Source of the DNA: Candidatus Poribacteria bacterium
Lineage (GTDB): Bacteria > Poribacteria > WGA-4E > WGA-3G
Reading direction: 5' to 3'
Assembly: GCA_026702755.1 (NCBI GenBank)
Contig: JAPPBX010000011.1
Span: 1 to 49,528 of the forward strand
Length of the DNA stretch: 49,528 nucleotides
Under the pieces are notes generated by a model, which saw only the letters and a program-made list of their open reading frames with translations, made no database searches and had not been told where the DNA came from. The translations under genes and the position numbers were made by a program. Position 1 is the stretch's first letter, and every line of letters begins with the position of its first letter. This document shows positions 20,604 through 43,168 of the stretch, piece by piece.

Positions 20604-21134
20604 TTAGAACTGGGCGGGGAAGTTTCCACGGGCGGCATCCATGATTTCGCCTGTAATCTCGTCATGTCCGTTTTCTTTCGCAAAACTCTCAATCCCCATC
20701 TTCGCCATAGGACGAACAAACGCCGGAATCCGTTCCAAACGTTCAAGTGCCTCCGCCGACCAGACGGGACCCGTTGGTTCGGTCGGTTCAGAAGTTTCCT
20801 GAAACGCCTCGGAGATAACGCCAGTAAAGGGGCACTTACCACCCTCAGCGGTTTCACCTGAACCCGTCTCTGGAGAAACCTCATTAGGCATCACATTGTC
20901 TTTCGCTGTTTCCAGCTGTGAACGCACCAGCTGCATCGGCTGCGCTGCTTCGTTGTTACCACCGAGTTTGAGATCCAAAGACTTCAGCATCTGGGTCTCC
21001 GACGGATTGAGGTACATGGCGATCTCTGTGAAGCAGTCAGGGCATTCAAAAAGTGCTGTCACAGAGCCTTGTTCCGGACGGGTAACGTCTTTAAACTTCA
21101 TCGCCGTATCACAGTCTATGCACAGGAACTTCAT
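20604..21134 (-). CDS. Zinc-ribbon protein with C-terminal PCP_red domain
   Basis: A 176-residue soluble protein. The N-terminus has a zinc-ribbon pattern with C5-x2-C8 and C31-x2-C34. The last 50 residues (WSAEALERLERIPAFVRPMA onward, ending ITGEIMDAARGNF) match the PCP_red module known from the C-terminus of the BchB/ChlB subunit of dark-operative protochlorophyllide reductase. The middle is a low-complexity Pro/Glu/Thr linker. Start ATG 21132-21134 has AAAGGAG; a longer frame overlaps the ATPase gene and is rejected. It is the last gene of the PQQ-propeller/Mrp operon. No photosynthesis gene is nearby, so the role is probably metal or Fe-S related, an inference from the Mrp neighbour. Confidence 0.8.
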   Translation of the reverse strand: MKFLCIDCDTAMKFKDVTRPEQGSVTALFECPDCFTEIAMYLNPSETQMLKSLDLKLGGNNEAAQPMQLVRSQLETAKDNVMPNEVSPETGSGETAEGGKCPFTGVISEAFQETSEPTEPTGPVWSAEALERLERIPAFVRPMAKMGIESFAKENGHDEITGEIMDAARGNFPAQF

Positions 21135-21144
21135 TTTTTCTCCT

Positions 21145-22026
21145 TTAGTTCTCAAAAAACGCTTGAATCTTTTCACCAACTTGCATGAGTGCTGCGCTTG
21201 CTGGCGTATCTGGATATTCGTCAATATAAGGGGTTCCGGTGTCACTACAACGTGCAAGTCTCGGATCAAAAGGGATACTACCGAGGATGACCTGTTGGAA
21301 CGCAGCGTCCAGTGTCTCATCAGCGGAAAAGAGCGGCTCCTCTTCGCCGCAGTGTTGACAGACATAGAAAGCCATATTCTCGACAACACCGATGATTGGG
21401 ACCTTGAGCACATCTCTCGCCAAGGTTATCGATTTTTTGACGACCAGCTGCGATACCTCAGACGGAATTGTCACAACGACTACACCACCGAGGTTCGGGA
21501 TGAGCTCCGCCACATTTGGAAGTCGATCACTGCCGGGTGGCAGATCAAGCAGGAGGTAATCCAACTCGCCCCATTCGGTGTCAGCGATAAACTCTCGGAG
21601 CGCGCCGACCTCCATTGTGCTACGCCATGTGAACGCGTCCTTTTGGGTATACGCGTTCCAGAGCACCGGCGCATCGTCTTCCGCCAAGAGTAAGTCCATA
21701 GAGATAAGCTTGGTGCCGAGTACCGTAACCGCAGGCTTAACACCAGCAGATATGTACTCCAGCGTCGCGTTTCGGACTCCCATCATCTTGGCAAGCGTCG
21801 GTCCGTTGATGTCAGCGTCCACAACCCCGACAGTGTTACCTTTCAGCGTGAGGGCAGTAGCGAGATTAGCCGTGAGGACACTCTTGCCGACCCCACCTTT
21901 CCCACTCATAACGGCAACAGTATGTTTGACGGAGGCAAGCCGTTTCTGAACCCGGTCCGCTTGCGCTGTGACCTGCCCAATAATGTTGGAGCCAGCATCG
22001 TTCGGCAGTTCTTTGTAAGTTTTCAT
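21145..22026 (-). CDS. mrp: Mrp/NBP35-type P-loop ATPase (Fe-S carrier family)
   Basis: A 293-residue cytosolic ATPase of the MinD/Mrp group, which carries and transfers iron-sulfur clusters. The deviant Walker A GKGGVGKS (about 42-49), DADINGPTLAKMMG, and the switch LLLDLPPGSDR are all present, and a CxxC (CQHC) in the second half is where family members bind a bridging cluster. The ATG overlaps the stop of the PQQ-propeller gene (ATGA), so translation is coupled; the PCP_red gene starts 10 bases after its stop. Family identity is firm; its client proteins are not known. Confidence 0.9.
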   Translation of the reverse strand: MKTYKELPNDAGSNIIGQVTAQADRVQKRLASVKHTVAVMSGKGGVGKSVLTANLATALTLKGNTVGVVDADINGPTLAKMMGVRNATLEYISAGVKPAVTVLGTKLISMDLLLAEDDAPVLWNAYTQKDAFTWRSTMEVGALREFIADTEWGELDYLLLDLPPGSDRLPNVAELIPNLGGVVVVTIPSEVSQLVVKKSITLARDVLKVPIIGVVENMAFYVCQHCGEEEPLFSADETLDAAFQQVILGSIPFDPRLARCSDTGTPYIDEYPDTPASAALMQVGEKIQAFFEN

Positions 22027-23291
22027 TTCTTGCCGATCGCATAGAGTGCTTGGTAGCTGCGCAAATAGAGTACCCCGTTTGAGATAGCAGGAGATGCAGC
22101 GATGACCTCCCCTAACGAATTGCTGGCGACGATTTCAAACGCACGTCCCGTTTTTACAACGTTGACAATGCCGTCACGAGACGTTAGATAGATGTGTCCG
22201 TTCGCATACACAGGCGAGGCACGATGTCGGTGTCGATGCGTCCGCTCGCGATAGAGTTGTTCTCCAGTCTCGGCATCAAGACATATCAGATCACCCCGCT
22301 CTCGACAGAGATAAACCAAGCCATCCTGAATAACCGGGGAGGGAACATCCGGTGTCCCCTGTCGAAGTTTCCAAAGTTGCCATTTGCTATCAGTTATATC
22401 GCCTTTTGCAGCGGGATCAATGCCCAAAACAGGTCCGTTTTTCGCCGACGGAACGACGATAAGCCCCTCTGTCGCAACCGGAGAAGCGACGAACCGAAGG
22501 GACGGATTATACCCCATCACCGGATTCAAACCGCCACATCGCCAGATTTCGCTACCATCTTCAAGACTGTGGGCAGTGACATAATCCGCACCGTGGACAA
22601 CAAGGTATTCACGTTCCGCATCGCGATAGAGAATCGGAGAGGTATAAGCCTGTTCACATTCATCGGTCGCATCACTTTCGCGCTTATGTTTCCAAATCTC
22701 TTTGCCCGTCATTTTGTCGAGAGCCAGCACAAGCCATGCATTACTATGGATGAGGTGAATGTAAAGTCGGTCCTTGTCAACCAGCGGTGTCGTAGACATA
22801 ACGAAATAGAGGTTGAAGCTACCGTAACGCTCAGCGAGATTGGTATGCCAGACCTGATTTCCATCGAAATCGTAGCAGACAAGGTCCCCAGTTCCAAGGA
22901 ATGCCCAGACATGCTCCCCATCAGTTACTGGCGAGGGTGCAGCAGAATTGCCTTCACCGCCGCGGACGCTTCGGTTACCATGCCCTACAGTCTGTTTCCA
23001 AAGTTCTTCACCCTCAGTGCTAATGCACATCAGAACGAGGGCATTCCCCTCAGCCGAAGTGAGAAAAATCTTGTCTTCCCAGATAACAGGGGTAGAGGCA
23101 GCCTCACCGGGGAGCGGTAAACGCCACTTAACATTTTCAGTTTGACTCCACTGGATAGGTACATCGGTCTCGTGGCTGATGCCGTCGTTGTTTGGGCCGC
23201 GCCACTGGTGCCAATTTTCAGCAGACAAAGACCCCACAAGGATAAACACCCCAAGTAGCAGTGTTAGTGTATTTCTTAGTATATATTTCAT
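22023..23291 (-). CDS. Secreted PQQ-type beta-propeller protein
   Basis: A 422-residue exported protein: signal peptide (hydrophobic TLTLLLGVFILVGSLSA), then the QWRGPNNDGIS segment typical of planctomycete-like PQQ propellers, followed by repeated blades each ending in W-x-T/W-x-H or LDxxTGxxxW-type tryptophan docking motifs (for example LDKMTGKEIWKH, LDAETGEQLY). Similar folds occur in BamB and quinoprotein dehydrogenases; the catalytic residues of the latter are not evident, so a binding or scaffolding role is as likely. AGGAGGG lies six bases before the ATG at 23289-23291. It is first in an operon with the Mrp ATPase and PCP_red protein. Confidence 0.85.
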   Translation of the reverse strand: MKYILRNTLTLLLGVFILVGSLSAENWHQWRGPNNDGISHETDVPIQWSQTENVKWRLPLPGEAASTPVIWEDKIFLTSAEGNALVLMCISTEGEELWKQTVGHGNRSVRGGEGNSAAPSPVTDGEHVWAFLGTGDLVCYDFDGNQVWHTNLAERYGSFNLYFVMSTTPLVDKDRLYIHLIHSNAWLVLALDKMTGKEIWKHKRESDATDECEQAYTSPILYRDAEREYLVVHGADYVTAHSLEDGSEIWRCGGLNPVMGYNPSLRFVASPVATEGLIVVPSAKNGPVLGIDPAAKGDITDSKWQLWKLRQGTPDVPSPVIQDGLVYLCRERGDLICLDAETGEQLYRERTHRHRHRASPVYANGHIYLTSRDGIVNVVKTGRAFEIVASNSLGEVIAASPAISNGVLYLRSYQALYAIGKK

Positions 23292-23330
23292 GGTGATCCC
23301 TCCTCGATAAAATCTACTCAAATACGGAAT

Positions 23331-23940: not shown

Positions 23941-24504
23941 CTAAACATCAATACCAAAAATGAGGACAGGGATATCAATATCAGCGACTCCCCGCTGTTC
24001 TAAATCCCACACGAATTGCTCAAAATATGAGACACCGGTAGACATATCATCAGCAAAAGATTTCACTGGGACAATCTCAACGCCAGCATCAATGTAGCCC
24101 AAGTTGCGAAAAATAGTCATTTTTGCACACACATTGTAGACCATAAATGCGTATTTTCCAAACTGAACCTCCACTCCAAGACGTTCTTTCAGAAAGTCCA
24201 TTTCTCGGTATGCCGGACGCATTTGTTTAGGTGAATATCCAGAACTGTAGTAGTCTGTTGAATAGTGACACGTTACACGTTTCTTCTGCCATCCTTTGGA
24301 TCCAAAACCTTGGGCAAAAGAGCGATTAAGGTCGGGAGGACTATACAACTTTTTGCCCGGCATCGTGAGTTCTTTGCTTTCTTTAATTTTGTAGAGCGAG
24401 GCATCAACAACAGCAATAATATCCTTCACCTCTTGTAACAGGTACGGGTGTGTCTTTTGAATGGAATACCCATTGTTGAATGAGTACTCGGCAGCAATAA
24501 TCAT
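23941..24504 (-). CDS. Type II restriction endonuclease, BglII/BstYI-like
   Basis: A 187-residue protein. It shows D103-x8-E112-V-Q114 (in MDFLKERLGVEVQFGK). This matches the spacing and the unusual E-x-Q in place of E-x-K in the BglII active site (D84, E93, Q95) as I recall it, and the length is in the right range. It lies 20 bases downstream of a DNA methyltransferase gene on the same strand, the standard layout of a type II system. By family, recognition of a GATC-centred site such as AGATCT or RGATCY is likely, but this is inference. The ribosome site is weak (GAGAAAG), which may keep expression low relative to the methylase. Confidence 0.75.
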   Translation of the reverse strand: MIIAAEYSFNNGYSIQKTHPYLLQEVKDIIAVVDASLYKIKESKELTMPGKKLYSPPDLNRSFAQGFGSKGWQKKRVTCHYSTDYYSSGYSPKQMRPAYREMDFLKERLGVEVQFGKYAFMVYNVCAKMTIFRNLGYIDAGVEIVPVKSFADDMSTGVSYFEQFVWDLEQRGVADIDIPVLIFGIDV

Positions 24505-24524
24505 GATTATTCGACTTTCTCAAT

Positions 24525-25508
24525 CTATTTCCATTCCAAAGGCATCTGTGCCGCACTTTCTTTTTCCGTTGGTTTGTGAATAGGTTTTCCCAAGGGGCGA
24601 AGAGGTAATGTTCCCTGTGCAAATTTCTGTAGTCTCTCACGAGTAATAGCCACATACTTTGAATCTTGTTCAGCAGCGATCGCTTTTCGATTATACTGCA
24701 AGGCAGCAATGATAGTTGATCCAACACCACAATATGGGTCTAAAACAATCCCTTCAGGTTCTGTAAGTGCTAAGACGCATCGCTGGACCAACTCGACGGG
24801 AAACTGGCAAGGGTGCTCGGTTTTCTCTGGATGGTTCGCTTTTACGTTTGGAATATCCCAAACTTCATCTTCCCAATCCTGTTTAACCACATCCCAAATA
24901 TCAGACGGATTTTTGCCAAGCGGGTTTCCTGAAAGTTGACCGCGTTTCGGCCCTTTGAAATGTCGCTTGCCTGGGTATTTTGCGGGAACGCGTACCGGAT
25001 CAAGATTGAAAACATATTCGTCATTCTTCGTAAACCACAAAATAGTTTCATATCGACCTGAGAACCGCTTTGTGCAGTGCAATCCGTGATTAAACCGCCA
25101 GATGATGCGATTCCGCAATTTTAATCCAAAACGTTTGAAAATCTCATAAAAGTAAATATCAAGCGGAAATACCTCCCCCTTCTGGACGTAATTTCCAACC
25201 TGCCAACAGAGACTTCCAGTCGCAGCAAGCACTCGTTCTATTTCCGCAATTACAGGCTCCATATCTTTTAGATATGACGCTAAGGATGTTTTTTTCTCGT
25301 ATTTTTTGCCTATGTTGTACGGGGGAGATGTGATGACTAAATCCACCGAACTTGACGGAACGCCCTTTAGCAGCTCGCTACAATCCCCATTAAACAGGAC
25401 AACGTCCACATCGGTGTTATAGGTATTTGAAACCGTAATCTGACGTGGTGTGTCGAAAATACCCGTCTCAACTTCAACTGTTTCAACGTGAGAATCTTGG
25501 GATCCCAT
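24525..25508 (-). CDS. Beta-class type II DNA methyltransferase
   Basis: A 327-residue S-adenosylmethionine-dependent methylase. The catalytic motif TSPPYN comes near residue 60 and the AdoMet-binding motif DPYCGVGSTIIAA near 265, the order that defines the beta class. SPPY is most common in N4-cytosine methylases, which agrees with known partners of BglII-like nucleases, though N6-adenine activity is not excluded. GGGAG precedes the ATG. An 8-bp palindrome GGGATCCC (25499-25506) covers the first codons and contains an RGATCY-type site that may be a target of the system itself. Cognate nuclease gene follows 20 bases later. Confidence 0.9.
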   Translation of the reverse strand: MGSQDSHVETVEVETGIFDTPRQITVSNTYNTDVDVVLFNGDCSELLKGVPSSSVDLVITSPPYNIGKKYEKKTSLASYLKDMEPVIAEIERVLAATGSLCWQVGNYVQKGEVFPLDIYFYEIFKRFGLKLRNRIIWRFNHGLHCTKRFSGRYETILWFTKNDEYVFNLDPVRVPAKYPGKRHFKGPKRGQLSGNPLGKNPSDIWDVVKQDWEDEVWDIPNVKANHPEKTEHPCQFPVELVQRCVLALTEPEGIVLDPYCGVGSTIIAALQYNRKAIAAEQDSKYVAITRERLQKFAQGTLPLRPLGKPIHKPTEKESAAQMPLEWK

Positions 25509-25924: not shown

Positions 25925-27832
25925 TCAGTCCTGATTCGGCTGCTGATAATATTCACCAAGCACCTCATTGGCGAGACTTCTGCCATCCTCAATGACCCGT
26001 GCGGCGAAATCGAGCGTAACTTGGGTGATATTGTTCTCCTGTGCGCGCTGTTCAATCCGGGTTTGGGTGATATTCCGCATGAACCCAGCAGGAACTAAAT
26101 TCAAACGTTCGATCGCCTCTTCTGTCCACTGTACGGGGCTTTCAAAACCTTGAACGGCTTCAGCGTTTTGGGAGTCAGGAGCCTGTGCCTGCACCTCCCT
26201 AAGTTCCGGTGCATCTTCACGAACCGCAGCCGCTTCACCCATGCTGTCGTTGATAATCTCTGTTGCGAAGGCATTCGTGATAGTGCCAATCTTTTGGGAA
26301 CGTGCGGACTTCTCAATTCGTGCCTTGACGTTTCGACGCATATAACCGCGCGGAACACGCCGCAGTGCCTTTTTGGATTCCTCTGACCATTGGAGTCGCA
26401 CCCCGTCGAATGTCTCTTCTTCTTCCGCACCGCCTTCGTCTACAGCGATGTGATCCAACGAATTTTTATCCACCATCTGGAACCGTTCCGGCTCCGAACT
26501 ACAGACGGGACACTGAACAGGCTGCTGATTGTGTGCGGCATAACCACACTCGCCGCAGATGTATGTTTGTACGGCATCTGACTCCAGCACCTTCTGCTCC
26601 GCGATCTCTTTCGCGACGCGCGTCAGCTTTTCAGAAGCACGTTGCGGCATAATCGCTTCCATCGCCATGTCAATGACGCTCTCTGTAATGACGGAATGAC
26701 CACGCTCAATCGCAAACCGATGAACGGCTGTCTTGGCGATACCGCGCACGAGAGGCGGGGCTTTTTCCATTCTATCCAACGCTTCCTGAGTCCAGACAAG
26801 TGTCTCTTCTGCCTTTACATCAATCTGTGGGAAGTAACGCTGGCTCGATAAGAGAACATTGCAAGGGGCAAGGCGCAACAGGTTCTCGGCAGTGCTACCG
26901 ATGTCCGTATCCTGTTCACTGTGAACGCCAATTCTGCCTAAAACGAGGAGCCAAGGATTTGTTTTTCGGGTGTATTGTAGGATCTTTTCATAGCCTTTTC
27001 CATCGAGCAGTGTAATTTTTAGTGCGTAGTCGTGTTCCTCTTTGGCAATAGAGCGTGCAACCTCTAAGTGTGATTGATAAATTTTCGCCAATCCTGTGTC
27101 AATCACTTCCTCGTGGAGCTGTTCCTGCTCTTTAAATCTGAAGGTCCTCGCGGCGCGTTCTGTCAGCACATTCACAACGGAATTGAAGACAATGTAGTGG
27201 AGATACGGATCGTAGACCCCGACGGCTTCGACCTGTTTGTTGAACTTACGTCCGAGTTGGATCGCCGTTTTCAACCCGGAAAAAGATTCAGGACTTCCAT
27301 CAATTCCGACGAGGATATTTCCGTCATGTTCCTCAATCGGATCGAGGTCTCGGACGACGAGCGTATCCGTATGGATACGACGGACAACGCGTTCACAGAC
27401 ACCACCGATGAGGCTATCCTTGACAGCACCCATGCCGAGTGCCCCCATAATCACCAGATCGTAGTCGTTTTCCTCAATATCCTCAACGAGTTTTATGTAG
27501 TGCTTGCCCTCCGGCATTTTCGCTTCAAACGGGATGTTAAACTCGGTGCACTTCTCCTTCATAACCTCCAGATAGGAATCGGAGATCAGTTGCAGTCCCA
27601 TCGTAATAAGGGTATCGTGGATGCGGCGTTGCTTTTCAAGTTCGACCTCATCCTGATACTCCTCTGGTAGGGTGTATTCCATCTGCTTAAAGCGGACATC
27701 GTGCATCTTTGCGGCATAGACGTGCGAACCGACCAATTGGGACCCGAACTGCCTCGCGAACGCGACCGCTAAGGCGATACTCGCATCCGAGTAGTCCGAA
27801 TTGTCAACGGGTACATAAATCTTTTTGATCAT
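25925..27832 (-). CDS. Dual universal stress protein fused to PCP_red and rubredoxin-like domains
   Basis: A 635-residue cytosolic protein. USP domain 1 (about 1-165) has the ATP-type loop GALGMGAVKDSLIGG; USP domain 2 (170-330) has LGRIGVHSEQDTDIGSTAE. Then come a PCP_red-like module at about 346-392 (WTQEALDRMEKAPPLVRG), a four-cysteine rubredoxin-like zinc or iron site at about 426-450 (CGECGYAAHN, CPVC), and two further PCP_red-like modules at about 481-525 and 567-612, each opening with W[ST]EE. AAGGA precedes ATG. The PCP_red module is shared with the protein at 20604-21134. A redox- or metal-linked stress sensor is a reasonable guess only. Confidence 0.82.
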   Translation of the reverse strand: MIKKIYVPVDNSDYSDASIALAVAFARQFGSQLVGSHVYAAKMHDVRFKQMEYTLPEEYQDEVELEKQRRIHDTLITMGLQLISDSYLEVMKEKCTEFNIPFEAKMPEGKHYIKLVEDIEENDYDLVIMGALGMGAVKDSLIGGVCERVVRRIHTDTLVVRDLDPIEEHDGNILVGIDGSPESFSGLKTAIQLGRKFNKQVEAVGVYDPYLHYIVFNSVVNVLTERAARTFRFKEQEQLHEEVIDTGLAKIYQSHLEVARSIAKEEHDYALKITLLDGKGYEKILQYTRKTNPWLLVLGRIGVHSEQDTDIGSTAENLLRLAPCNVLLSSQRYFPQIDVKAEETLVWTQEALDRMEKAPPLVRGIAKTAVHRFAIERGHSVITESVIDMAMEAIMPQRASEKLTRVAKEIAEQKVLESDAVQTYICGECGYAAHNQQPVQCPVCSSEPERFQMVDKNSLDHIAVDEGGAEEEETFDGVRLQWSEESKKALRRVPRGYMRRNVKARIEKSARSQKIGTITNAFATEIINDSMGEAAAVREDAPELREVQAQAPDSQNAEAVQGFESPVQWTEEAIERLNLVPAGFMRNITQTRIEQRAQENNITQVTLDFAARVIEDGRSLANEVLGEYYQQPNQD

Positions 27833-27959: not shown

Positions 27960-28229
27960 CTACAGTTCATCCTGTTCATCCGGTTTGTAGCGAACCCCCA
28001 GAAAACCGCCAAGTATATGCGCAATCAGTGTCGCTGGCCATAAGTAAACCATTGCTGTTTGCCAGCCCCAGCCGAGCACAAAACGCCGCACAACGATGTT
28101 AATAACGATCGGAATATAGAGGCACCTACTCCACGGACGGCTGAATCTCTTAAACCGCCCACGAAAAAACCCGAATGCGAAGTGAATCACAAAAGCCACG
28201 ACGGAGATTAAGAGGTTCGGATCTTTCAT
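27960..28229 (-). CDS. Small membrane protein of the oxidase cluster
   Basis: An 89-residue protein with about three hydrophobic segments (LLISVVAFVIHFAFGFF; CLYIPIVINIVV; MVYLWPATLIAHILGGFLGV) and an acidic C-terminus. Its ATG overlaps the stop of the SCO gene by four bases (ATGA), so it is translationally coupled to it. No family is recognised. It is the last gene of the heme-copper oxidase run and could be an assembly or accessory subunit. Confidence 0.65.
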   Translation of the reverse strand: MKDPNLLISVVAFVIHFAFGFFRGRFKRFSRPWSRCLYIPIVINIVVRRFVLGWGWQTAMVYLWPATLIAHILGGFLGVRYKPDEQDEL

Positions 28230-28864
28230 TGCTTGAGAAGCGCGTTAACATCCCGCCGTAGACGCAGCAGCGCGGGTTTACTCCGACTATCGTAGTAACC
28301 GTAGATGTTTCCATCCGGTGCAACAAGAACAAACCGTGTGCTATGAAGTAATTCAGTACCTTTGTGTCCCGCGGCTAAACTGAACCCCTCTTCAGCTAAC
28401 TGATAGATATGCCCCTTGTCCCCAGTAAGAAAGTGCCAACGTCTTTCGTCAGCACCATAAGCCTTCGCATAGCGTGAAAGTACAGCCGACGTATCCCGTT
28501 CCGGATCCACAGAAAAAGAAACGAAATAGACCGGATCTGCGACAAATTCGGATTGAAGGCGTGCCATCTCCTGCGTCATCGCCGGACAAATCGTCGGGCA
28601 GTTAGTAAAGATAAAGTCCGCCACCCAGATTTTGCCCTTCATATCCGACAGTCCTAACATCTGTCCCCGCTGGTCAGTTAGACTGAAATCCGGCACACTG
28701 ACAACGGCACTTTTAGAAACTGGCACCTCCGATTTGGTGTCAAACACCGACCATAAATTGATACCCGCGATGCCAACAATGATAACACCCAGCACCACCC
28801 AAATCAGAGTGCTTTTATCAAGTCGCCGTTCAGCCTTGTTAGAACTGTCGTTCTGTGCTTCCAT
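28226..28864 (-). CDS. SCO1/SenC-type copper chaperone
   Basis: A 212-residue membrane-anchored thioredoxin-fold protein: cytoplasmic start, transmembrane helix at about 20-38, then the periplasmic domain. The copper ligands of the family are present: C89-P-T-I-C93 and His174 in ELLHSTRFVL. SCO proteins deliver copper to the CuA centre of cytochrome c oxidase subunit II, here encoded upstream as ctaC. It lies after ctaF, separated from it by a tandem palindromic array. Confidence 0.92.
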   Translation of the reverse strand: MEAQNDSSNKAERRLDKSTLIWVVLGVIIVGIAGINLWSVFDTKSEVPVSKSAVVSVPDFSLTDQRGQMLGLSDMKGKIWVADFIFTNCPTICPAMTQEMARLQSEFVADPVYFVSFSVDPERDTSAVLSRYAKAYGADERRWHFLTGDKGHIYQLAEEGFSLAAGHKGTELLHSTRFVLVAPDGNIYGYYDSRSKPALLRLRRDVNALLKQ

Positions 28865-28995: not shown

Positions 28996-29331
28996 TTAGT
29001 GAACCGACGTATCAACAACTTCTGCCGGTTTCTCTATCCCTTCGTGCCGCGTATCTGATGTGAGGTCGGGCATCAGCGCAAACACGAGAAGAACACAGAT
29101 AAGAAAAGGCGTTATCACAATAATCGCCAACGTTTTCCTTTCAAACTTTAGATGCATGAAATAGTTAGCGACCAAGATAGCTTTCCCACAAGCAAGACCG
29201 ATTAGGAGTATCGCTTTCAAGACGGTCGAGTAGTCCGGTATCGCCACAGCAATCTCAACAATGGTTAGCCCTGCAAGCCACCAAAAAATATTCATATATT
29301 TTGGATGCTCTTTGTGCCCGTTTCCTGCCAT
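28996..29331 (-). CDS. ctaF: Cytochrome c oxidase subunit IV, prokaryotic type
   Basis: A 111-residue membrane protein with three hydrophobic helices and the subunit IV signature LACGKAILVANYFMHLKFE. It belongs to the aa3 oxidase encoded upstream. The start at ATG 29329-29331 is chosen because AGGAGG lies eight bases before it, while an ATG two codons earlier is only two bases from that site. Its gene begins 12 bases after the ctaE stop. Confidence 0.88.
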   Translation of the reverse strand: MAGNGHKEHPKYMNIFWWLAGLTIVEIAVAIPDYSTVLKAILLIGLACGKAILVANYFMHLKFERKTLAIIVITPFLICVLLVFALMPDLTSDTRHEGIEKPAEVVDTSVH

Positions 29332-29343
29332 TTTCATATCCTC

Positions 29344-29994
29344 CTACAGTAGATAGATGAAGGTGAAGACCATAATCCAGATAAGGTCAACGAAATGCCA
29401 ATAGAGTCCAACGATCTCTACCTCATGGTTAAACTCAGCCGTATATCTACCACGCAAGCCATGTATTAAGATAACAATGAGATAGATAACACCACCGGTC
29501 ACGTGCATCCCGTGGAAACCTGTGATGGCATAGAACATGGGACCAAAAAGCGTCGAACCGCTAATCGCTGCACCTGATAACCCGTGGTCGGGAATACCGG
29601 TAAGCGTCAATCCGTGGGTAATCAGATGATACCATTCATAAGCCTGCAATCCAAGGAAAATGACTCCCCCAGCAATTGTCAACCCTAAAAACGTGCACAT
29701 GCGTGAAACATTGCCGTTTTGAATCGATTCCAGTGCTTTCACCATCGTGACGCTACTGCATATCAACAGGAACGTCATTGCTGCGGTTAGGTTGATGCCG
29801 AGAATCTCGTCTGGCGGCACCCAACCGATTACACCTGCCCCTGCCCGGACAGCAGCATAAGCCGCCAACAACGCCCCAAACGACATGGTATCCCCGACGA
29901 GGAAAATCCACATGCCAAGCTTACCGAGACTGTCTGGCGTAAGCGAAGGTTCATATACATCTTCAATATGATCCGAAGTGGTAGCGTGTTCCAC
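29344..29994 (-). CDS. ctaE: Cytochrome c oxidase subunit III
   Basis: A 216-residue subunit with five or six helices. Family features include LGMWIFLVGDTMSFGALLAAY at the start of the first helix, FHGMHVTGGVIYL, and the terminal VGLYWHFVDLIWIMVFTF. It stabilises the catalytic subunit and holds lipid near the proton path. The start codon is GTG with AGGAG ten bases upstream. A second, diverged subunit III-like gene lies at 30401-31003, so two related subunits are made from this cluster. Confidence 0.93.
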   Translation of the reverse strand: MEHATTSDHIEDVYEPSLTPDSLGKLGMWIFLVGDTMSFGALLAAYAAVRAGAGVIGWVPPDEILGINLTAAMTFLLICSSVTMVKALESIQNGNVSRMCTFLGLTIAGGVIFLGLQAYEWYHLITHGLTLTGIPDHGLSGAAISGSTLFGPMFYAITGFHGMHVTGGVIYLIVILIHGLRGRYTAEFNHEVEIVGLYWHFVDLIWIMVFTFIYLL

Positions 29995-30400: not shown

Positions 30401-31003
30401 TCACGAGAGATACACTAAAACGTAGAGAATTGGCCAGAGCGCGACAACAAAAATCCAATAGATTGTACAGGTATCAACGCCGACGTAACGCGCAGCGGAG
30501 AAACGTCCTTTCAACGCCATCCCAAAAACGATGAACAACCATATAACAGCACTCAACACATGAACCGCATGGCACCCAATCAGTACGTAAAAGATGCCAC
30601 CGTAGACCCCAGACTGAAGCGTAAGCCCCTTACGAATCAGCTGCACCCACTCGCTCCCCTGTATTCCAAGGAAGAGAAGTCCAAGGACCCCCGTGAGCAG
30701 AAGCCATTTGTGGAGCTGCTTCACCAAATCCTTCTGAATCGCACGGCGCGCTTGAAACATCGTGTAACCGCTCAATAGCAGCAGTGCCGTATTGATGCCA
30801 GTCACTGCACGCGGCAACTCAATCCCGATATGTGATGGCGGGGGCCAAGTAACGTTTCCAACCCGAAACACGAGAAATGTCCCGATCAAACCTGAAAATA
30901 GCATCGTCTCCGCACCGAGTAAGATTAAGATTCCCAAGCGTGCGTTGCTCAAAGGTGATCGGGTGGACTCGTGTATTTCAGAGTTATTCTGGGTTTCCAT
31001 CAT
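30401..31003 (-). CDS. Second cytochrome c oxidase subunit III-like protein
   Basis: A 200-residue subunit III relative with about five helices: RLGILILLGAETMLFSGLIG aligned to the first conserved helix, then IGCHAVHVLSAVIWL (matching FHGMHVTGG of ctaE) and the terminal CTIYWIFVVALWPILYVLVY. The conserved glutamate of the first helix is present (GAETM). Its ATG overlaps the stop of the preceding small gene (ATGA). Having two subunit III genes in one cluster is seen in some phyla; whether both assemble into the same oxidase is open. Confidence 0.88.
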   Translation of the reverse strand: MMETQNNSEIHESTRSPLSNARLGILILLGAETMLFSGLIGTFLVFRVGNVTWPPPSHIGIELPRAVTGINTALLLLSGYTMFQARRAIQKDLVKQLHKWLLLTGVLGLLFLGIQGSEWVQLIRKGLTLQSGVYGGIFYVLIGCHAVHVLSAVIWLFIVFGMALKGRFSAARYVGVDTCTIYWIFVVALWPILYVLVYLS

Positions 31004-31333: not shown

Positions 31334-32257
31334 CTAAATTTTATCCAACGCCATGGTAATGAACACCAACGGCAAATAAAGCAACGAAGCGTATAAGAGA
31401 TAGCGTGCCGCCTTCACCGAGCGCGCACGAGCCAAATAGATACCGACTGCCAAAAACCCTGCACCTGCCAGCAGTGCTGTAAAGAAATAGATACTACCGG
31501 CAATGTTATACAGTGCAGGCAACAAGCCAACCCCAAGGAGTGCGACGCAATTAATCACAATTTGACGACATGTACTCGCACCGTCTGGATGAATAACCGG
31601 TAACAGACGGAAACCCGCTTTCGCGTAATCTTCGCGATAGATATAGGCTATTGCGAGTGAGTGAGGTATCTGCCACAAAAAGAGTATCGTAAATAACACC
31701 CACGCTTCACCTGTCAGCGAACCTCTTGCCGCAACCCATCCAACGACAGGTGGAAGCGCCCCCGGCACCGCACCGATGAGGGTACACAACGAAGTCTTCC
31801 GCTTAAGCGGCGTATAGAGAAACAGATAACTGACGACTATCAGCGAAATAACAAACCCGCTTAGCACATTGACCATAAACGTCAGATACAACATTCCGCC
31901 CCCTGTAAGCACAGCACCAACGAGGAGTGCCTCCAACGGATTCATTCTGCCATCAGGCAAGGGTCTTTCCTGCGTCCGTTTCATCTGTGCGTCTACATCG
32001 CGTTCCAAGTATTGGTTGAGACCTAATACACCCGCTGCTGTCAACCCCGCGCCGATAAGTGTATGCAGGCATCGGAGCCAATCCACGGTCTGGGCACCGA
32101 GATAAAAACCCGCCGCAGTTGTAATGAGTATCATCACAACCAATCGCGGTTTGACAAGTTCGACATAATCAGCAGCGCGATGCACAAAAACCGTCTGCTT
32201 CGACGGTGGGTTTACCGCGTCTGTGTTGTCTGGTAAGGTTGCAGTTGTTGAACGCAT
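31334..32257 (-). CDS. ctaB: Protoheme IX farnesyltransferase (heme O synthase)
   Basis: A 307-residue polytopic prenyltransferase that converts heme B to heme O with farnesyl diphosphate. The first Asp-rich motif is NQYLERDVDAQMKRTQERPL and the second conserved stretch YTPLKRKTSLCTLIGAVPGA; about eight or nine helices are visible. With CtaA upstream it supplies heme A for the aa3 oxidase. No clear Shine-Dalgarno precedes the ATG (TGTAAAAA only). Confidence 0.95.
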   Translation of the reverse strand: MRSTTATLPDNTDAVNPPSKQTVFVHRAADYVELVKPRLVVMILITTAAGFYLGAQTVDWLRCLHTLIGAGLTAAGVLGLNQYLERDVDAQMKRTQERPLPDGRMNPLEALLVGAVLTGGGMLYLTFMVNVLSGFVISLIVVSYLFLYTPLKRKTSLCTLIGAVPGALPPVVGWVAARGSLTGEAWVLFTILFLWQIPHSLAIAYIYREDYAKAGFRLLPVIHPDGASTCRQIVINCVALLGVGLLPALYNIAGSIYFFTALLAGAGFLAVGIYLARARSVKAARYLLYASLLYLPLVFITMALDKI

Positions 32258-32382: not shown

Positions 32383-33468
32383 TCATTCTGTGACTAACAC
32401 ATCACTCACGGGTGCCTCAACAGCTACCGATGCATCAGTAAACCGGTAGATTTTTAAAGTAAGCACAAAACTACTTACTAACATGAGGGCACCGACCGCA
32501 ACGTGCGCTGTGGTAATTGTCACTGTGAGCGCGGTTGCGAATGTTTCTCCGAAAGCGGTCAGTTTCGCGAAAAACGCCCCTGTGCCGAGCATCAACTGAA
32601 CAGCAAGCAGCCCCAACAACAAGAATGCCGTTGACGGAGCAATCCTCTGTGTTTCATCGTCTGTCCCAAGGATACGTCTCGCCAACAAAAAGATATGCAG
32701 CGCAACCAAAAAGGCAAAAAGAAGATGCGCATCAAGCCTACTGCCGGTATGCCGTAAAATCGCGCCAAAGATGAGCTGCAGATAAATAAGACACGTCGTA
32801 ATCAGACTTAACCGCCGCAGCTTCTGTGCTTCAAGATGGCTATCGGCTTTCGGCTTTCGGCTACCATCGTTGTAGTTGTTAGAAACGATTTCGGACTCCA
32901 CAAAACCTTCTTGCTGATGGCTGACGGCTGACGACTGACTCCCGTTTTGCCACCAATCACGAGAGGTGAACCAAGCAATCCCACAGAGCAGTGCAAAAAA
33001 CGCCTGCGCCAGACAGGCATGCACGATCGCGAAGTTGCGGTTAATCTGCGTAACCCGAAGTCCACCAAGAACACCCTGAACAATAACAGCGACAAGTGCA
33101 ATGAGTCCAAGCCATTTCAACCACTTACGGGAATCTCTCACCAAAGCGAAGATAAAGAGACCGACTGTCAAGAGTCCAACAAGAGATCCCATAAGCCGAT
33201 GGCTATGCTCATATAGGATACCGCCTACCATCTCCGACAACGGATAGAGAAACATGTTATACCCGAAGGTCGTTGGCCAATCGGGCACAGCCAATCCGGA
33301 CTCCGTACTCGTGACAATTCCACCGATGACAATCAACAAGAATGTCACACCTGCAGTGAGGCGTGCCGTTCTGTGCAGCCATGGGCTATAATTGGGTGGA
33401 AGGTTGGAAGATTGGAAGATGGGGTGTCCCCCCTTCTTCTCTTCCATCCTTCCAATCTTCTCTTCCAT
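32383..33468 (-). CDS. ctaA: Heme A synthase with repeat-derived insert and N-terminus
   Basis: A 361-residue polytopic enzyme (eight expected helices) converting heme O to heme A. Typical features: GGIVTSTESGLAVPDWP at the first helix, the heme-ligand histidines in YEHSHRLMGS, and the second-half ILRHTGSRLDAHLLFA and TITTAHVAVGALML. Two oddities: residues 1-24 are encoded by an octad repeat element, and residues about 177-210, in the loop between the two halves, come from a 102-bp heptad element. The family core otherwise starts near residue 30, and no other start codon is available in frame. AGAGG lies 11 bases before ATG. It begins 17 bases after the ctaD stop. Confidence 0.92.
   Translation of the reverse strand: MEEKIGRMEEKKGGHPIFQSSNLPPNYSPWLHRTARLTAGVTFLLIVIGGIVTSTESGLAVPDWPTTFGYNMFLYPLSEMVGGILYEHSHRLMGSLVGLLTVGLFIFALVRDSRKWLKWLGLIALVAVIVQGVLGGLRVTQINRNFAIVHACLAQAFFALLCGIAWFTSRDWWQNGSQSSAVSHQQEGFVESEIVSNNYNDGSRKPKADSHLEAQKLRRLSLITTCLIYLQLIFGAILRHTGSRLDAHLLFAFLVALHIFLLARRILGTDDETQRIAPSTAFLLLGLLAVQLMLGTGAFFAKLTAFGETFATALTVTITTAHVAVGALMLVSSFVLTLKIYRFTDASVAVEAPVSDVLVTE
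32838..32939. repeat. Heptad foldback element inserted in ctaA
   Basis: GGCTATC, GGCTTTC, GGCTTTC, GGCTACC in 7-bp phase (32838-32865) face TGCTGAT, GGCTGAC, GGCTGAC, GACTGAC (32912-32939). The 102-bp length is a multiple of three and leaves the ctaA frame open. Confidence 0.85.
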
Positions 33469-33485: not shown

Positions 33486-35306
33486 TTAATCGCCGCTTGT
33501 CGCGGGGGCGTGTTCAGGTTCTGCCTGCGGAATCCAATCCGATTCCTCACCAGGTACACTATATTCATAAGGACCCCGGTAAACAGTCGGGATTTGACCG
33601 AAATTGCCGTGCGGCACCGGTGTAGGTGCCTCCCACTCCAACGTATTTACATGCCAAGGGTTTTTCTCGGCGACTTTGCCGCGGTACATACTCCAGAAGA
33701 AGTTAAAGACCAGTATCAATTGTGCGAAGCCGAGGGTAAACGCACTCATCGTAATAAAGATGTTCATACCCTCAAACTGCTGCAAAAATTCATACTGCAT
33801 CGGGTTGGAGATTCGCCGCATGTGTCCGCCTACACCGAGAATATGCATCGGGAAGAAGGTGCAGTTGAAAGCGATGAACGTCAACCAAAAATGAATCTTC
33901 GAGAGTACATCGTTCATGTGGCGACCATACATCTTCGGAAACCAGAAGATGATGCCACCGAACATAGCGAACAGACTTCCACCGAACACAACATAGTGGA
34001 TGTGTGCGACAATGTAATAGGTATCGTGGATGAAGATGTCCACCGGCGTATTTGCCATATAGATACCGCTGAGTCCACCAATCACAAACATCGAAACAAA
34101 AGCAATCGCGTGAAGCATCGGCGTTGTAAATCGGATTGAACCGCGGAACATTGTCCCAAGCCAGTTAAACGTCTTGATGGCTGATGGCACCGCAATGAGC
34201 ATCGTTGTCGTCATGAATATAGAACCGAGACCGGGCTGCATGCCACTCTGGAACATGTGGTGTCCCCAGACGATCCAACCCAAAAACGCGATGGCGATCA
34301 TGGCGTAAACCATAGAACGGTATCCGAAGATCGGTTTCCGTGAAAAGACAGCCACCAATTCGGAGGCAATGCCCATCCCCGGCAAGATAAGGATATAGAC
34401 TTCAGGGTGTCCAAAGAACCAGAAGAGATGTTGCCACAAGAGCGGATCACCGCCACCTTCCGCCGTAGCGGTAAAGAAAGTTGTTCCCGCAAGCCTATCA
34501 AAGATGAGAAGCGCGAGTGCCGAAGAAAGCACAGGGAACGCAAGTAGCAAGAGAATCGCAACAATGAAAAGCGACCAAATGACTAACGGCAGTCGGAAAA
34601 ACGTCATTCCGGGCGCACGCATATTGATAATCGTGGTGATATAGTTAATAGACCCCACCAAGGAGGAAAATCCTTGAATCAGCAGACTAATTGCCCAAAG
34701 GTTTTGCCCCCAGTCAACACCTGTCCACTGCGGGTCAGAAGAGAGAGGCGCGTAGCCTGTCCATCCAGCAGCTGCGTGTCCGCCGGGGACAAAGAACCCG
34801 ACTGTCATGATAATCGCAGCGAGGACTGCAAGCCAAAAGGAGAGCATGTTCAGGATAGGAAACGCCATGTCCCGTGTACCGATCATCAACGGAATTAGGA
34901 AATTTCCGAAGGCACCCACCAAGATAGGGACCACGACGAAGAACACCATAATAGTGGCATGCATCGTGAACAGCATGTTGTAAAATGCTGGCTCGACGAC
35001 CCCACTCGGCATATTGACTTCAAGCCATTCCTCTTTTTCAGATTCATAAATCCGTTCCCACATCCTATCAGCACCGGTGACAACTTCACCTTCGTCCAGA
35101 TACTGTTGCGATGCGCCGATGATGGGTAATGGTCTTTCGGGATAGGCGAGTTGCCATCTAAAGAGGAGCGCAAGCCCGCCACCGAGGAAGAGCATAATCA
35201 GTCCGTAGATGAGGAACTGCTTACCGATCATCTTGTGGTCAAGTGAAAAGATGTATTTGCGAATAAAACTTTCTTCATGATGTGACGAATGTTCGTTATC
35301 GTGCAT
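33486..35306 (-). CDS. ctaD: Cytochrome c oxidase subunit I (A1-type heme-copper oxidase)
   Basis: A 606-residue catalytic subunit with 12 or more helices that reduces oxygen and pumps protons. Visible: low-spin heme histidine in MHATIMVFFVVVP, GNFLIPLMIGTRDMAFP with the D-channel Asn and Asp, FWFFGHPEVYILILPG with the CuB histidine, Tyr and the Glu that defines A1-type enzymes, WGHHMFQSGM with the other CuB histidines, and HDTYYIVAHIHYVVFGGS with the heme a3 and a ligands. ATG 35304-35306 has AAGGAGG nine bases upstream. It begins 20 bases after the ctaC stop. Confidence 0.97.
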   Translation of the reverse strand: MHDNEHSSHHEESFIRKYIFSLDHKMIGKQFLIYGLIMLFLGGGLALLFRWQLAYPERPLPIIGASQQYLDEGEVVTGADRMWERIYESEKEEWLEVNMPSGVVEPAFYNMLFTMHATIMVFFVVVPILVGAFGNFLIPLMIGTRDMAFPILNMLSFWLAVLAAIIMTVGFFVPGGHAAAGWTGYAPLSSDPQWTGVDWGQNLWAISLLIQGFSSLVGSINYITTIINMRAPGMTFFRLPLVIWSLFIVAILLLLAFPVLSSALALLIFDRLAGTTFFTATAEGGGDPLLWQHLFWFFGHPEVYILILPGMGIASELVAVFSRKPIFGYRSMVYAMIAIAFLGWIVWGHHMFQSGMQPGLGSIFMTTTMLIAVPSAIKTFNWLGTMFRGSIRFTTPMLHAIAFVSMFVIGGLSGIYMANTPVDIFIHDTYYIVAHIHYVVFGGSLFAMFGGIIFWFPKMYGRHMNDVLSKIHFWLTFIAFNCTFFPMHILGVGGHMRRISNPMQYEFLQQFEGMNIFITMSAFTLGFAQLILVFNFFWSMYRGKVAEKNPWHVNTLEWEAPTPVPHGNFGQIPTVYRGPYEYSVPGEESDWIPQAEPEHAPATSGD

Positions 35307-35326
35307 TGTTATAGTCCTCCTTCCGC

Positions 35327-35992
35327 CTACTGAGGCCATCTTTCTTGTACCCAGGCATCATAGTCATCTTGGGCATGCACATTGAGGAACCCGAGCATTC
35401 CGGAGTGTCCAAATCCACACAATTCGGCACACGGAATTTCATAACGACCTGCCTTTGTTGCCTCAAACCAGACATCGATAAATCGGTTGGGCAAAGCATC
35501 CTGTTTGAGCCGTAACTGTGGCACGAAGAAACTGTGGATGACATCCTCAGCGGTTAAGCGGATATGCACGACCGCGTTGATCGGCACATGCAATTCGTTT
35601 TCTAAGTCCAAGTCATCATCTGTCCCGAACTCGTTATCGGGACCGGGATACGTCATATCCCAGTTAAACTGCTTTCCACTGACCTGGACAACAACATCTG
35701 GATTCTCAGGAAATTGTGTAGGCGACTTAATATTATTCCACTGCGGGTAACTGAACATCGCGAGCACAAAGACAATCACCGTTGTAACGGCTGTCCAAAC
35801 AATTTCCAGCGTTGTGCTTCCTTCAATGTAAGCCGCTCTCTTGCCTTCCTGATGCCGATATTTAATCAAGAAAACAATGAGGGTTCCCATTACAAGGACG
35901 AACACAATAAGGGTAAGCCAATAGATAGCGTGAAAGAGGTTATCAACGCCTTGCCCAAACGTTGATACGTTCTCTGGTAGCCATTGAAGCAT
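35327..35992 (-). CDS. ctaC: Cytochrome c oxidase subunit II
   Basis: A 221-residue subunit with two transmembrane helices (about 22-43 and 63-83) and a periplasmic cupredoxin domain. All CuA ligands are present: H153, C188, E190, C192, H196 and M199 (CAELCGFGHSGM). There is no cleavable signal and no fused heme c domain, so the enzyme is aa3-type and must take electrons from a separate cytochrome c or copper protein, several of which are encoded upstream. AAGGAGG five bases before ATG. First gene of the core oxidase set. Confidence 0.96.
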   Translation of the reverse strand: MLQWLPENVSTFGQGVDNLFHAIYWLTLIVFVLVMGTLIVFLIKYRHQEGKRAAYIEGSTTLEIVWTAVTTVIVFVLAMFSYPQWNNIKSPTQFPENPDVVVQVSGKQFNWDMTYPGPDNEFGTDDDLDLENELHVPINAVVHIRLTAEDVIHSFFVPQLRLKQDALPNRFIDVWFEATKAGRYEIPCAELCGFGHSGMLGFLNVHAQDDYDAWVQERWPQ

Positions 35993-37906: not shown

Positions 37907-37945
37907 AAGGAAACCCTCTTGCTGACCGCTGACCGCTGATGGCTA
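37840..37945. repeat. Heptad foldback element at the ABC ATPase start
   Basis: GACTGTC, AGTTGTC, AGTTGTC, GGAAACC (from 37840) face TGCTGAC, CGCTGAC, CGCTGAT, GGCTAC (to 37945). It contains the GTG start of the ATPase gene and runs into the stop codon of the cupredoxin-like gene. Confidence 0.82.
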
Positions 37946-38719
37946 CTTCAGTTTCAATGTGAAATCTTGCGTGACAGTGCCGCCAGCTGCTACAGTAACA
38001 GCGACAGGTGCCTCGTTGTTAGTACCACATGCTTCATGCCAATAGCCGAGTTTGTAGTCGCCTGCTGGGACATCTTCAAGCGTGAACTCACCTTTTTCGT
38101 TCGTCACGGCAAAATAGGGATGCGGTACGTAGGCAATCCAAGCCGACATCCATCCGTGAATGTCGCATTTGACTGAGACGGGACCCTCCGCCTTCTTCAC
38201 CGCTTTGAGGGGCATTCTTCGGCGGTTTTTCGACTGCGGTTTGTTAACTGGATTGCTACTGAAGATATGGACATTGTGCATAATCTTATCCGAATTCAGC
38301 ATCGTCAACCGAGCACCGACTGGAACGATCTGCACATGTGGTGTGAATTTGCAACCATCCTGATCAATTTCCGGTTTGGCTGCTTTGTCAAAATCTTTAC
38401 CTTCCGAAATGTCAATTAGATAGACAATCGTATTTTTTAGAACGTTGCCTTCACCGACGACCAGTGATTCATCAAATTTTTCGTCAGCACCACAAACCTT
38501 CTCGTCTTTGGTGATTTCCAGTGCTTTCTTTTCAGGCACGTCCCCTTCAAACTTGACTACGCCGCTAATTGTGCCGCCATTGTTAACAGCCTTAGCTTTA
38601 TACGCTTTAGGAAACACCAACATTTCCATGTCTCCTGAACCGGAGTCAGCCGCGAAGGCACCACCGGCATAGCAACACGCGAGAAATACCGTGAAACTTG
38701 TCAACAAATAGGTTTTCAT
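37943..38719 (-). CDS. Periplasmic cupredoxin-like protein (methylamine-utilisation/MauL style)
   Basis: A 258-residue exported protein: signal peptide to about A24, then a beta-sandwich with type I copper-like ligands: H148 in MHNVH, C185, H188 and M191 in CDIHGWM, plus H128 upstream. The C-terminal 55 residues (GEFTLEDVPAGDYKLGYWHE) form a carboxypeptidase regulatory-like strand module. It is a paralogue of the protein at 45159-45908. Position suggests a soluble or tethered electron carrier or copper carrier for the oxidases. AAAGGAG precedes ATG. Stop codon lies in a repeat element. Confidence 0.82.
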   Translation of the reverse strand: MKTYLLTSFTVFLACCYAGGAFAADSGSGDMEMLVFPKAYKAKAVNNGGTISGVVKFEGDVPEKKALEITKDEKVCGADEKFDESLVVGEGNVLKNTIVYLIDISEGKDFDKAAKPEIDQDGCKFTPHVQIVPVGARLTMLNSDKIMHNVHIFSSNPVNKPQSKNRRRMPLKAVKKAEGPVSVKCDIHGWMSAWIAYVPHPYFAVTNEKGEFTLEDVPAGDYKLGYWHEACGTNNEAPVAVTVAAGGTVTQDFTLKLK

Positions 38720-40622: not shown

Positions 40623-40623
40623 C

Positions 40624-41400
40624 TTAGTGTGCCTCCCCAAAGGTACGGAATTGATAACCGGTGTAGTCAGACAGAAAAAGGATGACATCCCAAATTTCGT
40701 CTTTTGTTAAGGAGTCTTCCCAGATAGGCATTGCCGAATCCCACGGCGTTCCCGATGCAGGTAATCCCGGGCCGCCTTTTGCTATTCGCCAAAAGAAGAA
40801 AGATTCTTGGAAGTTCGGAATAATTCCCGGGTCTTGGAAATTAGCAGGGAGCGGCTGGAGATATGGTGCGAAATGTCCTTGCCCATCAAGATGATCTCCA
40901 TGGCACGGAAAGCAATTCTGATGATAGACACGTCTACCGTTTTCAACATGCGCTTTGAACGCTTCCGGATCATCTTTTTCGTAATGCCGGAAGGGGTTCA
41001 CGACATCTTGCATCGTGCCAATGACCTCATCTTTATAAGTCAATTCAAGCGGCGGCGAAGGGTGCGCGTCACGCGGGCTTCCAGGGGGGTTTGCCCGCTG
41101 GGCAATAATCGAATAGGTATAACCGAGCAGAAAAAGCGGAATCAACACAGCGATAACGCGGCGGCGGACACGGCGATTGTTATCAACGAGCGTTTCACGG
41201 ATGGGGCGCAGAAACTCGCGAAACAGTGAATCCTCAACAGAGATATGCACCAAGACAGCGAGTAGAATCAACCCCATATACATCGCAATCACGCTTGCCG
41301 GTATCGGCACTGAGATGATATTCCCAATAATAAATCGCAGGAAGATCCAAGAACCGACCAGAATTATGAGACATATTGTGAAGAGCGACAATCTTTTCAT
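40624..41400 (-). CDS. Membrane-anchored monoheme cytochrome c
   Basis: A 258-residue protein with three helices (about 6-28, 36-53, 83-100), a Pro-rich linker and a C-terminal cytochrome c domain with C163-F-P-C-H167. A probable Met ligand lies in AMPIWEDSLT. It likely passes electrons at the membrane surface between the CydA-like subunit or bc-type complex and downstream oxidases. No Shine-Dalgarno is obvious before ATG. It is followed almost without gap by the diheme fusion gene. Confidence 0.85.
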   Translation of the reverse strand: MKRLSLFTICLIILVGSWIFLRFIIGNIISVPIPASVIAMYMGLILLAVLVHISVEDSLFREFLRPIRETLVDNNRRVRRRVIAVLIPLFLLGYTYSIIAQRANPPGSPRDAHPSPPLELTYKDEVIGTMQDVVNPFRHYEKDDPEAFKAHVENGRRVYHQNCFPCHGDHLDGQGHFAPYLQPLPANFQDPGIIPNFQESFFFWRIAKGGPGLPASGTPWDSAMPIWEDSLTKDEIWDVILFLSDYTGYQFRTFGEAH

Positions 41401-41525
41401 ATTTTTAATTATTAAGTTTCTGCTCTGCCTTCCACTTCGTTTCAGGCAGGCTTTTGGTTAATTCAAGACTGGATTTGAGACTTTTCAAGCAATTAAAAGA
41501 AAATCCTTTACTTGGATATTACCGC

Positions 41526-41545
41526 GCGAGGATGCAATCTTCGCC
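41526..41545. repeat. GCGAGG palindromic repeat
   Basis: GCGAGGATGCAATCTTCGCC is an imperfect member of the GGCGAGG hairpin family, in the 191-base gap between two cytochrome genes. Nothing else was recognised in that gap. Confidence 0.6.
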
Positions 41546-41591
41546 AACGACGGTATGGGCTCATGTTCACCATAGCACCCTGTGTTGTGTG

Positions 41592-43100: not shown

Positions 43101-43168
43101 TTTTGCCTCTTTCAAAAATCCCAATTCTTCAAGACAGAATCGCTTTGGTCCCGATTCATTCTTTCACG

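Follow-up and report, generated by a model that had tools for sequence, protein, structure and literature searches.

We have analyzed a stretch of 49,528 nucleotides (hereafter the window) from the genome of a Candidatus Poribacteria bacterium, a sponge symbiont. A single uninterrupted frame with an ATG start, located at 25925–27832 of the minus strand, codes there for a protein of 635 amino acids. The frame, Pfam, a genome scan and the homologues agree on two universal stress protein (USP) domains, a PCP_red module, a four-cysteine site and two more PCP_red modules, in that order, and we refer to the protein as USP-PCP3. On one side of it, also on the minus strand, we found the genes for a zinc-ribbon protein with a CPFTG motif and a PCP_red domain (ZnR-PCP, 20604–21134, from Pfam and alignment), a P-loop ATPase of the Mrp/ApbC/NUBPL type (21145–22026, profile matches) and a PQQ/BamB-like beta-propeller protein (22023–23321, Pfam). 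In a flank search of the best 80 loci, the beta-propeller was beside USP-PCP3 only in Poribacteria. Between USP-PCP3 and these genes, a BglII-like restriction endonuclease and an N4/N6 DNA methylase are encoded at 23941–25508. The same restriction-modification genes were found at locus L034, and a remnant of the methylase at L033, but they are missing from several sister loci, which suggests that the cluster acquired this module by insertion.

On the other side, the minus strand codes for a SCO1/SenC protein (28226–28864, Pfam) and, by profile matches, for cytochrome c oxidase subunits IV (COX4_pro, 28996–29337) and III (29344–29994), a second COX3-family subunit (30401–31003), the heme O synthase CtaB (31334–32257), a member of the heme A synthase family CtaA (32383–33468), subunit I (CoxA, 33486–35339, with 623 bits for TIGR02891, under its cut-off of 670.75) and subunit II (CoxB, 35327–35992). 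Further along the same strand, four genes identified by profiles stand side by side at 38904–45064. They code for an EB_dh domain (DMSO reductase type II gamma or NxrC-like heme b domain) fused to a cytochrome c (38904–40688), a membrane-bound c-type cytochrome (40624–41400), another c-type cytochrome (41592–43124) and a membrane protein similar to subunit I of bd-like oxidases (CydA-like, 43169–45064). Judging by the description in passages of PMC6606698, these are the same kinds of genes as in the cluster of bd-like_3, two cytochromes c and alt-NxrC that is conserved in Nitrospira, Nitrospina and anammox bacteria, with a role to be determined; an apparent difference is the link of the window-type cluster to PCP_red proteins and, at many loci, to an aa3 oxidase. 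Upstream of the CydA-like gene there is a multi-domain c-type cytochrome of 1000 amino acids (46514–49516) with FixO-like and MtrC-like stretches. Two similar-looking secreted proteins (37943–38719 and 45159–45908) flank the EB_dh and CydA-like genes, both with a possible blue-copper-like H..C..H pattern detected by eye. In a first Poribacteria genome paper (PMC3909097) we found neither oxidases nor cytochromes nor universal stress proteins treated.

Domains and conserved inserts of USP-PCP3

The Pfam profile Usp (PF00582) matched two stretches of the protein with 123.4 bits (curated cut-off 24) and PCP_red (PF08369) matched three, with 98.1 bits (curated cut-off 32.5). Taken singly in the whole-genome scan, the PCP_red copies had 46.8, 35.1 and 36.8 bits, so that all three repeats are assigned to this family above its cut-off. 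The first-pass annotation would have been refuted by a failure of this assignment, which did not happen; the architecture that it proposed is confirmed, with both profiles and folds for its USP and PCP_red parts. The coordinates that follow are all on the minus strand. The two USP domains, delimited by Pfam and alignment, cover residues 1–161 (27350–27832) and 171–330 (26843–27322). The ATP-binding motif of USPs is G-2x-G-9x-G-(S/T). USP2 of the window protein fits it exactly (G299, G302, G312 and S313); the exact pattern matches this domain in 16 of 32 homologues, and the four residues are invariant in all 32 with a spacing that varies. In USP1 (motif glycines G130, G133 and G143) a relaxed pattern was found in 32 of 32, the window protein ending with G144 and not with S or T. 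Behind the USP half, PCP_red module 1 spans residues 347–389 (26666–26794; Pfam, genome scan and fold), module 2 is located at 26267–26389 (genome scan and hhalign) and module 3 at 26006–26128 (genome scan, hhalign and fold). Between the first two modules, alignment and phmmer revealed a four-cysteine site of the rubrerythrin-type rubredoxin-like kind (26471–26566), with two CxxC pairs (C426, C429, C441 and C444) that do not vary among the 32 homologues aligned. The cysteines agree with the earlier description of this site as rubredoxin-like; with RUBY_RBDX, Pfam gave 18.9 bits, under the curated cut-off of 26.5.

A model of the full-length protein was of low confidence (pLDDT 71.5, pTM 0.49), poorest around parts of the helical inserts described below, and a structure search with it told us little about tail and inserts. 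For the tail, a separate model was made. The best solved match of the USP half (residues 1–333) was the tandem USP TTHA0350 (3ab7_B, Z 24.5, rmsd 2.4 Å over 235 aligned residues), with Z 24.4 for its ATP-bound entry 3ab8. Two USP domains in tandem are common to USP-PCP3, TTHA0350, Rv2623 and UspE, but in USP-PCP3 the inserts carry most of the invariant positions and a tail of PCP_red modules and four cysteines is added. The separate model of the tail (from 31 sequences, pLDDT 79.2, pTM 0.37) resembled the NMR structure of the PCP_red domain of BchB (2kru, Z 9.3, rmsd 3.7 Å, 63 aligned), Asr4154 of Nostoc (2l09, Z 8.7, rmsd 1.9 Å, 62 aligned) and the PCP_red end of a chain of the complex of dark-operative protochlorophyllide reductase (DPOR; 2ynm_D, rmsd 1.0 Å over 50 residues, Z 6.9). 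With BchB/ChlB of DPOR, where PCP_red is C-terminal (2kru, 2ynm, 2xdq), USP-PCP3 has in common the sequence and fold of this domain, but it lacks the Oxidored_nitro part and has three PCP_red copies and other N-terminal domains. Asr4154, a small stand-alone PCP_red protein, has the same fold but is a single unfused chain of 62 residues.

The domains had been interpreted as a redox or metal sensor. In the form considered here, the USP pair would read ATP, the rubredoxin-like site would read redox state and the PCP_red contacts would signal to respiratory or Fe-S proteins, the whole acting as a redox, oxygen or energy sensor with no cofactor building. We regard this as possible but rather doubtful: the tandem-USP fold, the conserved ATP-motif glycines, the four invariant cysteines and the lack of an enzyme domain among the Pfam profile matches all fit a sensor, but those same matches include no DNA-binding, kinase or receiver domain and the lasting partners of the gene are a radical-SAM enzyme and the Mrp-type ATPase (next section), not signalling genes.

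Conservation in USP-PCP3 is highest neither in PCP_red nor around the cysteines but in two helical inserts, pseudo-symmetric to each other, that the USP domains contain and in which 63 of 107 positions were invariant over 32 sequences: 32 of 54 in the insert of USP1 (residues 37–90, 27563–27724) and 31 of 53 in that of USP2 (residues 206–258, 27059–27217). The mean frequency of the top residue was 0.90 and 0.92 in the inserts versus 0.68–0.76 in the PCP_red modules of the same 32 sequences. The two USP halves could be aligned gap-free across the inserts (hhalign probability 98.7), and invariant pairs are found across this internal repeat (Y39/Y207, H44/H212, F48/F216, L55/L223, Q68/Q236, H72/H240, I76/I244, G79/G247, L80/L248 and I83/I251). 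The inserts were modelled as long helices (62–97, 209–230 and 233–267), with low confidence at 41–43 and 215–228, and contain six invariant histidines (37, 44 and 72 in USP1; 212, 240 and 255 in USP2) plus many invariant acids. Such residues might form a metal centre supplied by the appended rubredoxin-like site, as part of a rubrerythrin-like protection against peroxide or oxygen. The closest solved relative of the four-cysteine site is indeed the rubredoxin end of a Pyrococcus rubrerythrin (phmmer, E 1.2e-5), and residues 393–453 are similar to the part of rubrerythrin made up of its last helix and its rubredoxin, with the same cysteine spacing and preceding helix. We nevertheless consider this role highly improbable: in contrast to rubrerythrin, USP-PCP3 has no match to the ferritin-like diiron domain (Rubrerythrin PF02915 and Ferritin PF00210, Pfam, E up to 1), and E237, of an ExxH-like pattern in USP2, is replaced in a homologue from genome G045 that is also devoid of the rubredoxin-like part. 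This replacement weakens the candidate diiron site E237-x-x-H240.

The homologue just mentioned comes from a genome of the same class as that of the window, of another order and family. It is a tandem USP that has no PCP_red and no match to the four-cysteine profile, and it is 46% identical over the USP part. It retains all six insert histidines, and its gene directly adjoins those of a radical-SAM/SPASM protein with PCP_red (rSAM-PCP, see below) and of CydA-like and EB_dh proteins. Judging from these sequences, the USP inserts, rather than the tail, look like the functional core of USP-PCP3, to which the PCP_red tail seems to have been joined as an adaptor.

Distribution and gene neighbourhoods

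USP-PCP3 was found full length or nearly so in 33 of 40 genomes searched (that of the window included); one further genome had a fragment, and a 35th match was to the rubredoxin end of a rubrerythrin. The architecture was kept over at least 627 residues, at 76–97% identity, in 32 of the 39 relatives searched. Scanning a genome collection, we obtained 542 candidate stretches, of which 491 were relatives, and the taxon counts and loci reported here rest on the best 80 of these 491, with taxa as given in the record titles. They comprised 53 from Candidatus (or uncultured) Poribacteria, including the closest ones at 96% identity, which places the window in this group, and 27 from seven other phyla, 52–58% identical and with the architecture kept: 15 from Rokuibacteriota/Rokubacteria, 4 from Methylomirabilota, 4 from Rhodothermales/Rhodothermaceae/Bacteroidota and one each from Acidobacteria, Calditrichia, Planctomycetota and TA06. 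Full-length USP-PCP3 spans at least eight bacterial phyla, and its retention in both sets of relatives indicates that the architecture is beyond chance. The remark of the first-pass annotation that this architecture was not recognised is fair for the literature searched, which covered few subscription papers and in which we found no published account of USP-PCP3, but the family is common in genomes. The domains were already known, and the 491 relatives lead us to reject a unique fusion.

In a spread sample of Bacteroidota, full-length USP-PCP3 was found in 6 of 247 genomes, with a gap in scores from 999–1075 bits to 47; as many as 187 of the 247 matched the USP-PCP3 model, nearly all through USP stretches only. 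The insert-bearing USP core was present in 17 of 199 genomes of the Acidobacteria sample. One genome of this sample (G462) has an open frame of 428 amino acids that contains the USP insert core and may be another short form without the PCP_red tail. A tblastn search of plasmids with the complete protein gave 94 records, none covering 80% of it, and the matches listed all start at residue 1 and end by residue 376, i.e., in the USP part; the half containing the PCP_red modules and the four cysteines had no match among plasmids.

The first-pass annotation saw no photosynthesis genes, and we found no DPOR partner in the whole genome: Oxidored_nitro (nitrogenase-like BchN/BchB) had 0 matches in the genome of the window, and 1 of 12 genomes had any match. 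The other PCP_red copies of this genome are found in ZnR-PCP, in a radical-SAM protein and in a protein of 137 amino acids, none of them BchB-like, and on both counts a photosynthesis remnant was rejected. The radical-SAM protein, encoded on contig C31, is rSAM-PCP, a radical-SAM/SPASM protein with a C-terminal PCP_red. It had 318 bits with TIGR04545 (AhbD heme b synthase), 304 with NirJ2 and 265 with TIGR04053, all below cut-off, and the 500-bit cut-off of TIGR04545 was reached by the rSAM partner in 0 of 17 genomes. Radical SAM and SPASM are thus common to this partner and AhbD/NirJ, but PCP_red is added at its C-terminus. According to passages of PMC7242693, AhbD and NirJ act on the propionate side chains of tetrapyrroles. 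The 137-aa protein (8412–8825 of locus L027) adjoins rSAM-PCP and is conserved in Poribacteria; its PCP_red match is weak (28.7 bits, under cut-off), and it is a possible further member of the group. PCP_red proteins were present in 70 of 84 genomes of a phylum sample, and each of the 18 non-Poribacterial genomes tested had such proteins in addition to USP-PCP3.

In sister Poribacterial genera the genes form one row, colinear downstream of the COX operon: cox genes, CtaA, CtaB, SCO1, USP-PCP3, beta-propeller, Mrp, ZnR-PCP, a CopD-like membrane protein, rSAM-PCP and a small PCP_red protein. In the genus of the window the rSAM part is located away from the USP-PCP3 locus. Counting in the fetched flanks only, where many loci are cut by contig ends and several of these lie less than 2 kb from the gene, Mrp was found at 46 of 53 Poribacterial and 21 of 27 other loci, and a CxxC..CxxC PCP_red protein (ZnR-PCP) at 46 of 53 and 8 of 27. 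A pairing with the genes for Mrp and the zinc-ribbon protein (20604–22026), as had been suggested, is therefore borne out as a conserved gene order. The same 27 non-Poribacterial loci had an rSAM core (21), rSAM-PCP (17), the EB_dh cytochrome (16), CtaB (14) and CoxA (12). The cysteines and the CPF(TG) motif of ZnR-PCP were kept in 18 aligned sequences, the CxxxCxxC and SPASM cysteines of rSAM-PCP in 21, and in Mrp the P-loop was present in 67 of 67, with the CxxC detected by regex in 54 of 67. At one locus, that of Planctomycetota (L137), no partner gene was found within 10 kb on each side. This isolated gene, and the wide occurrence of USP-family matches seen in Bacteroidota, would be expected of an ordinary accessory stress protein with a neighbourhood inherited without functional meaning. 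Such an explanation appears very unlikely: the synteny is seen again in different phyla, between proteins about 53% identical, and the inserts are almost frozen.

The bd-like complex and the heme routes

Five loci from Rhodothermales/Bacteroidota and Calditrichia (L132, L134, L136, L138 and L141) have USP-PCP3 clusters without cox genes, in the row CydA-like, cytochrome c, cytochrome c, EB_dh, rSAM-PCP, USP-PCP3, Mrp and ZnR-PCP. The CydA-like gene was detected in 23 of 26 genomes with PCP_red proteins (7 of 8 Poribacterial, 16 of 18 others) and in 0 of 14 without them, a co-occurrence with few independent gains and losses since relatedness lowers the number of independent events. The Poribacterial exception (G008, 91% complete) is without CydA-like, USP-PCP3 and CtaA. 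CtaA, the heme A synthase, was present in 6 of 13 genomes without PCP_red proteins, which indicates that the bd-like complex, and not the aa3 oxidase, tracks the PCP_red module, and which weakens the idea that the module is needed for heme A or COX. This lasting genetic link to rSAM-PCP and to the bd-like cytochrome complex is the strongest signal in the data; the sensor reading misses it, and it points to the maturation of a cofactor or complex no less than to sensing.

The route to heme b was also considered. HemH was found in 16 of 17 genomes and a ChdC-family match likewise in 16 of 17. Ordinary heme b can thus probably be made without the module, and the proposal that rSAM-PCP supplies heme b is weakened. 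The Poribacterial ChdC-family matches are weak and partial (about 60–67 bits), and on these matches a ChdC-family route to heme b is likely in Poribacteria. One could also imagine a tetrapyrrole enzyme complex in which PCP_red would hold the tetrapyrrole. A modified heme, produced by rSAM-PCP and destined for the bd-like or EB_dh subunit, would have USP-PCP3 as its carrier. The characterised relatives of PCP_red and AhbD/NirJ do act on tetrapyrroles, and CtaA and CtaB are neighbours at part of the loci, but passages of PMC5443842 place the Pchlide site of DPOR at the ChlB/ChlN interface, which leaves tetrapyrrole binding by PCP_red itself putative, and SPASM enzymes also modify peptides, as the names of the matched families tell. 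We find this complex unlikely.

A possible maturation module

The full-length protein occurs in at least eight phyla beside shared respiratory genes, which argues for a helper in building or controlling a respiratory complex. Our preferred, tentative reading is that USP-PCP3 is a scaffold or cofactor chaperone within a PCP_red-tagged module that matures or controls the bd-like CydA/cytochrome c/EB_dh complex. USP-PCP3 would be a soluble, probably ATP-binding tandem USP, acting together with the rSAM/SPASM-PCP_red enzyme (of the AhbD/NirJ class, tetrapyrrole side chains), the Mrp-type ATPase and ZnR-PCP, and the module would mature or supply the co-encoded membrane complex, often at an aa3 oxidase locus. 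ATP may be bound by both USP halves. The invariant inserts, which correspond to each other through the internal two-fold of the tandem, could form a ligand site (metal, heme or tetrapyrrole) or a partner site, the rubredoxin-like site could provide one-electron redox control and the PCP_red modules might hold a tetrapyrrole or partner proteins. By analogy, Mrp might serve ZnR-PCP as BchL serves BchNB. PCP_red recurs on proteins with characterised relatives that handle tetrapyrroles (BchB, AhbD/NirJ), beside P-loop ATPases.

In favour of maturation we have counted the full-length relatives in seven other phyla, the further PCP_red proteins in all 18 non-Poribacterial genomes, the cluster described in Nitrospira, Nitrospina and anammox bacteria, the conserved gene order, the co-occurrence with CydA-like, the conservation of the inserts, the AhbD/NirJ scores of the rSAM partner and the short form of G045. 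Against it we have counted HemH and ChdC in 16 of 17 genomes, CtaA in 6 of 13, the 6 of 247 Bacteroidota, L137 without partners, the Mrp CxxC in 54 of 67, the few independent gains and losses and the low confidence of the full model. If maturation is correct, PCP_red gains a role outside chlorophyll making, a widespread USP family gains a testable first function, and the bd-like/alt-NxrC complex, whose role in nitrite oxidisers passages of PMC6606698 leave undetermined, gains its missing biogenesis factors. The nearly frozen USP inserts predict a precise ligand or partner site, open to mutagenesis.

A broader proposal, which we consider doubtful, is that of a so far undescribed maturation system common to several phyla. 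PCP_red would be the tag that unites otherwise unrelated members, namely a tandem USP, a radical-SAM/SPASM enzyme, a zinc-ribbon protein, its Mrp-type ATPase and one more small protein, and the system would make a modified tetrapyrrole or metal cofactor and insert it into the bd-like CydA/alt-NxrC complex. The USP inserts would then represent a new two-fold-symmetric, histidine-rich site. As a separate observation on PCP_red proteins, two Rokubacterial genomes have open frames of 275–288 amino acids with three PCP_red matches (G095:C137:6690-7373 and G098:C80:9123-9833).
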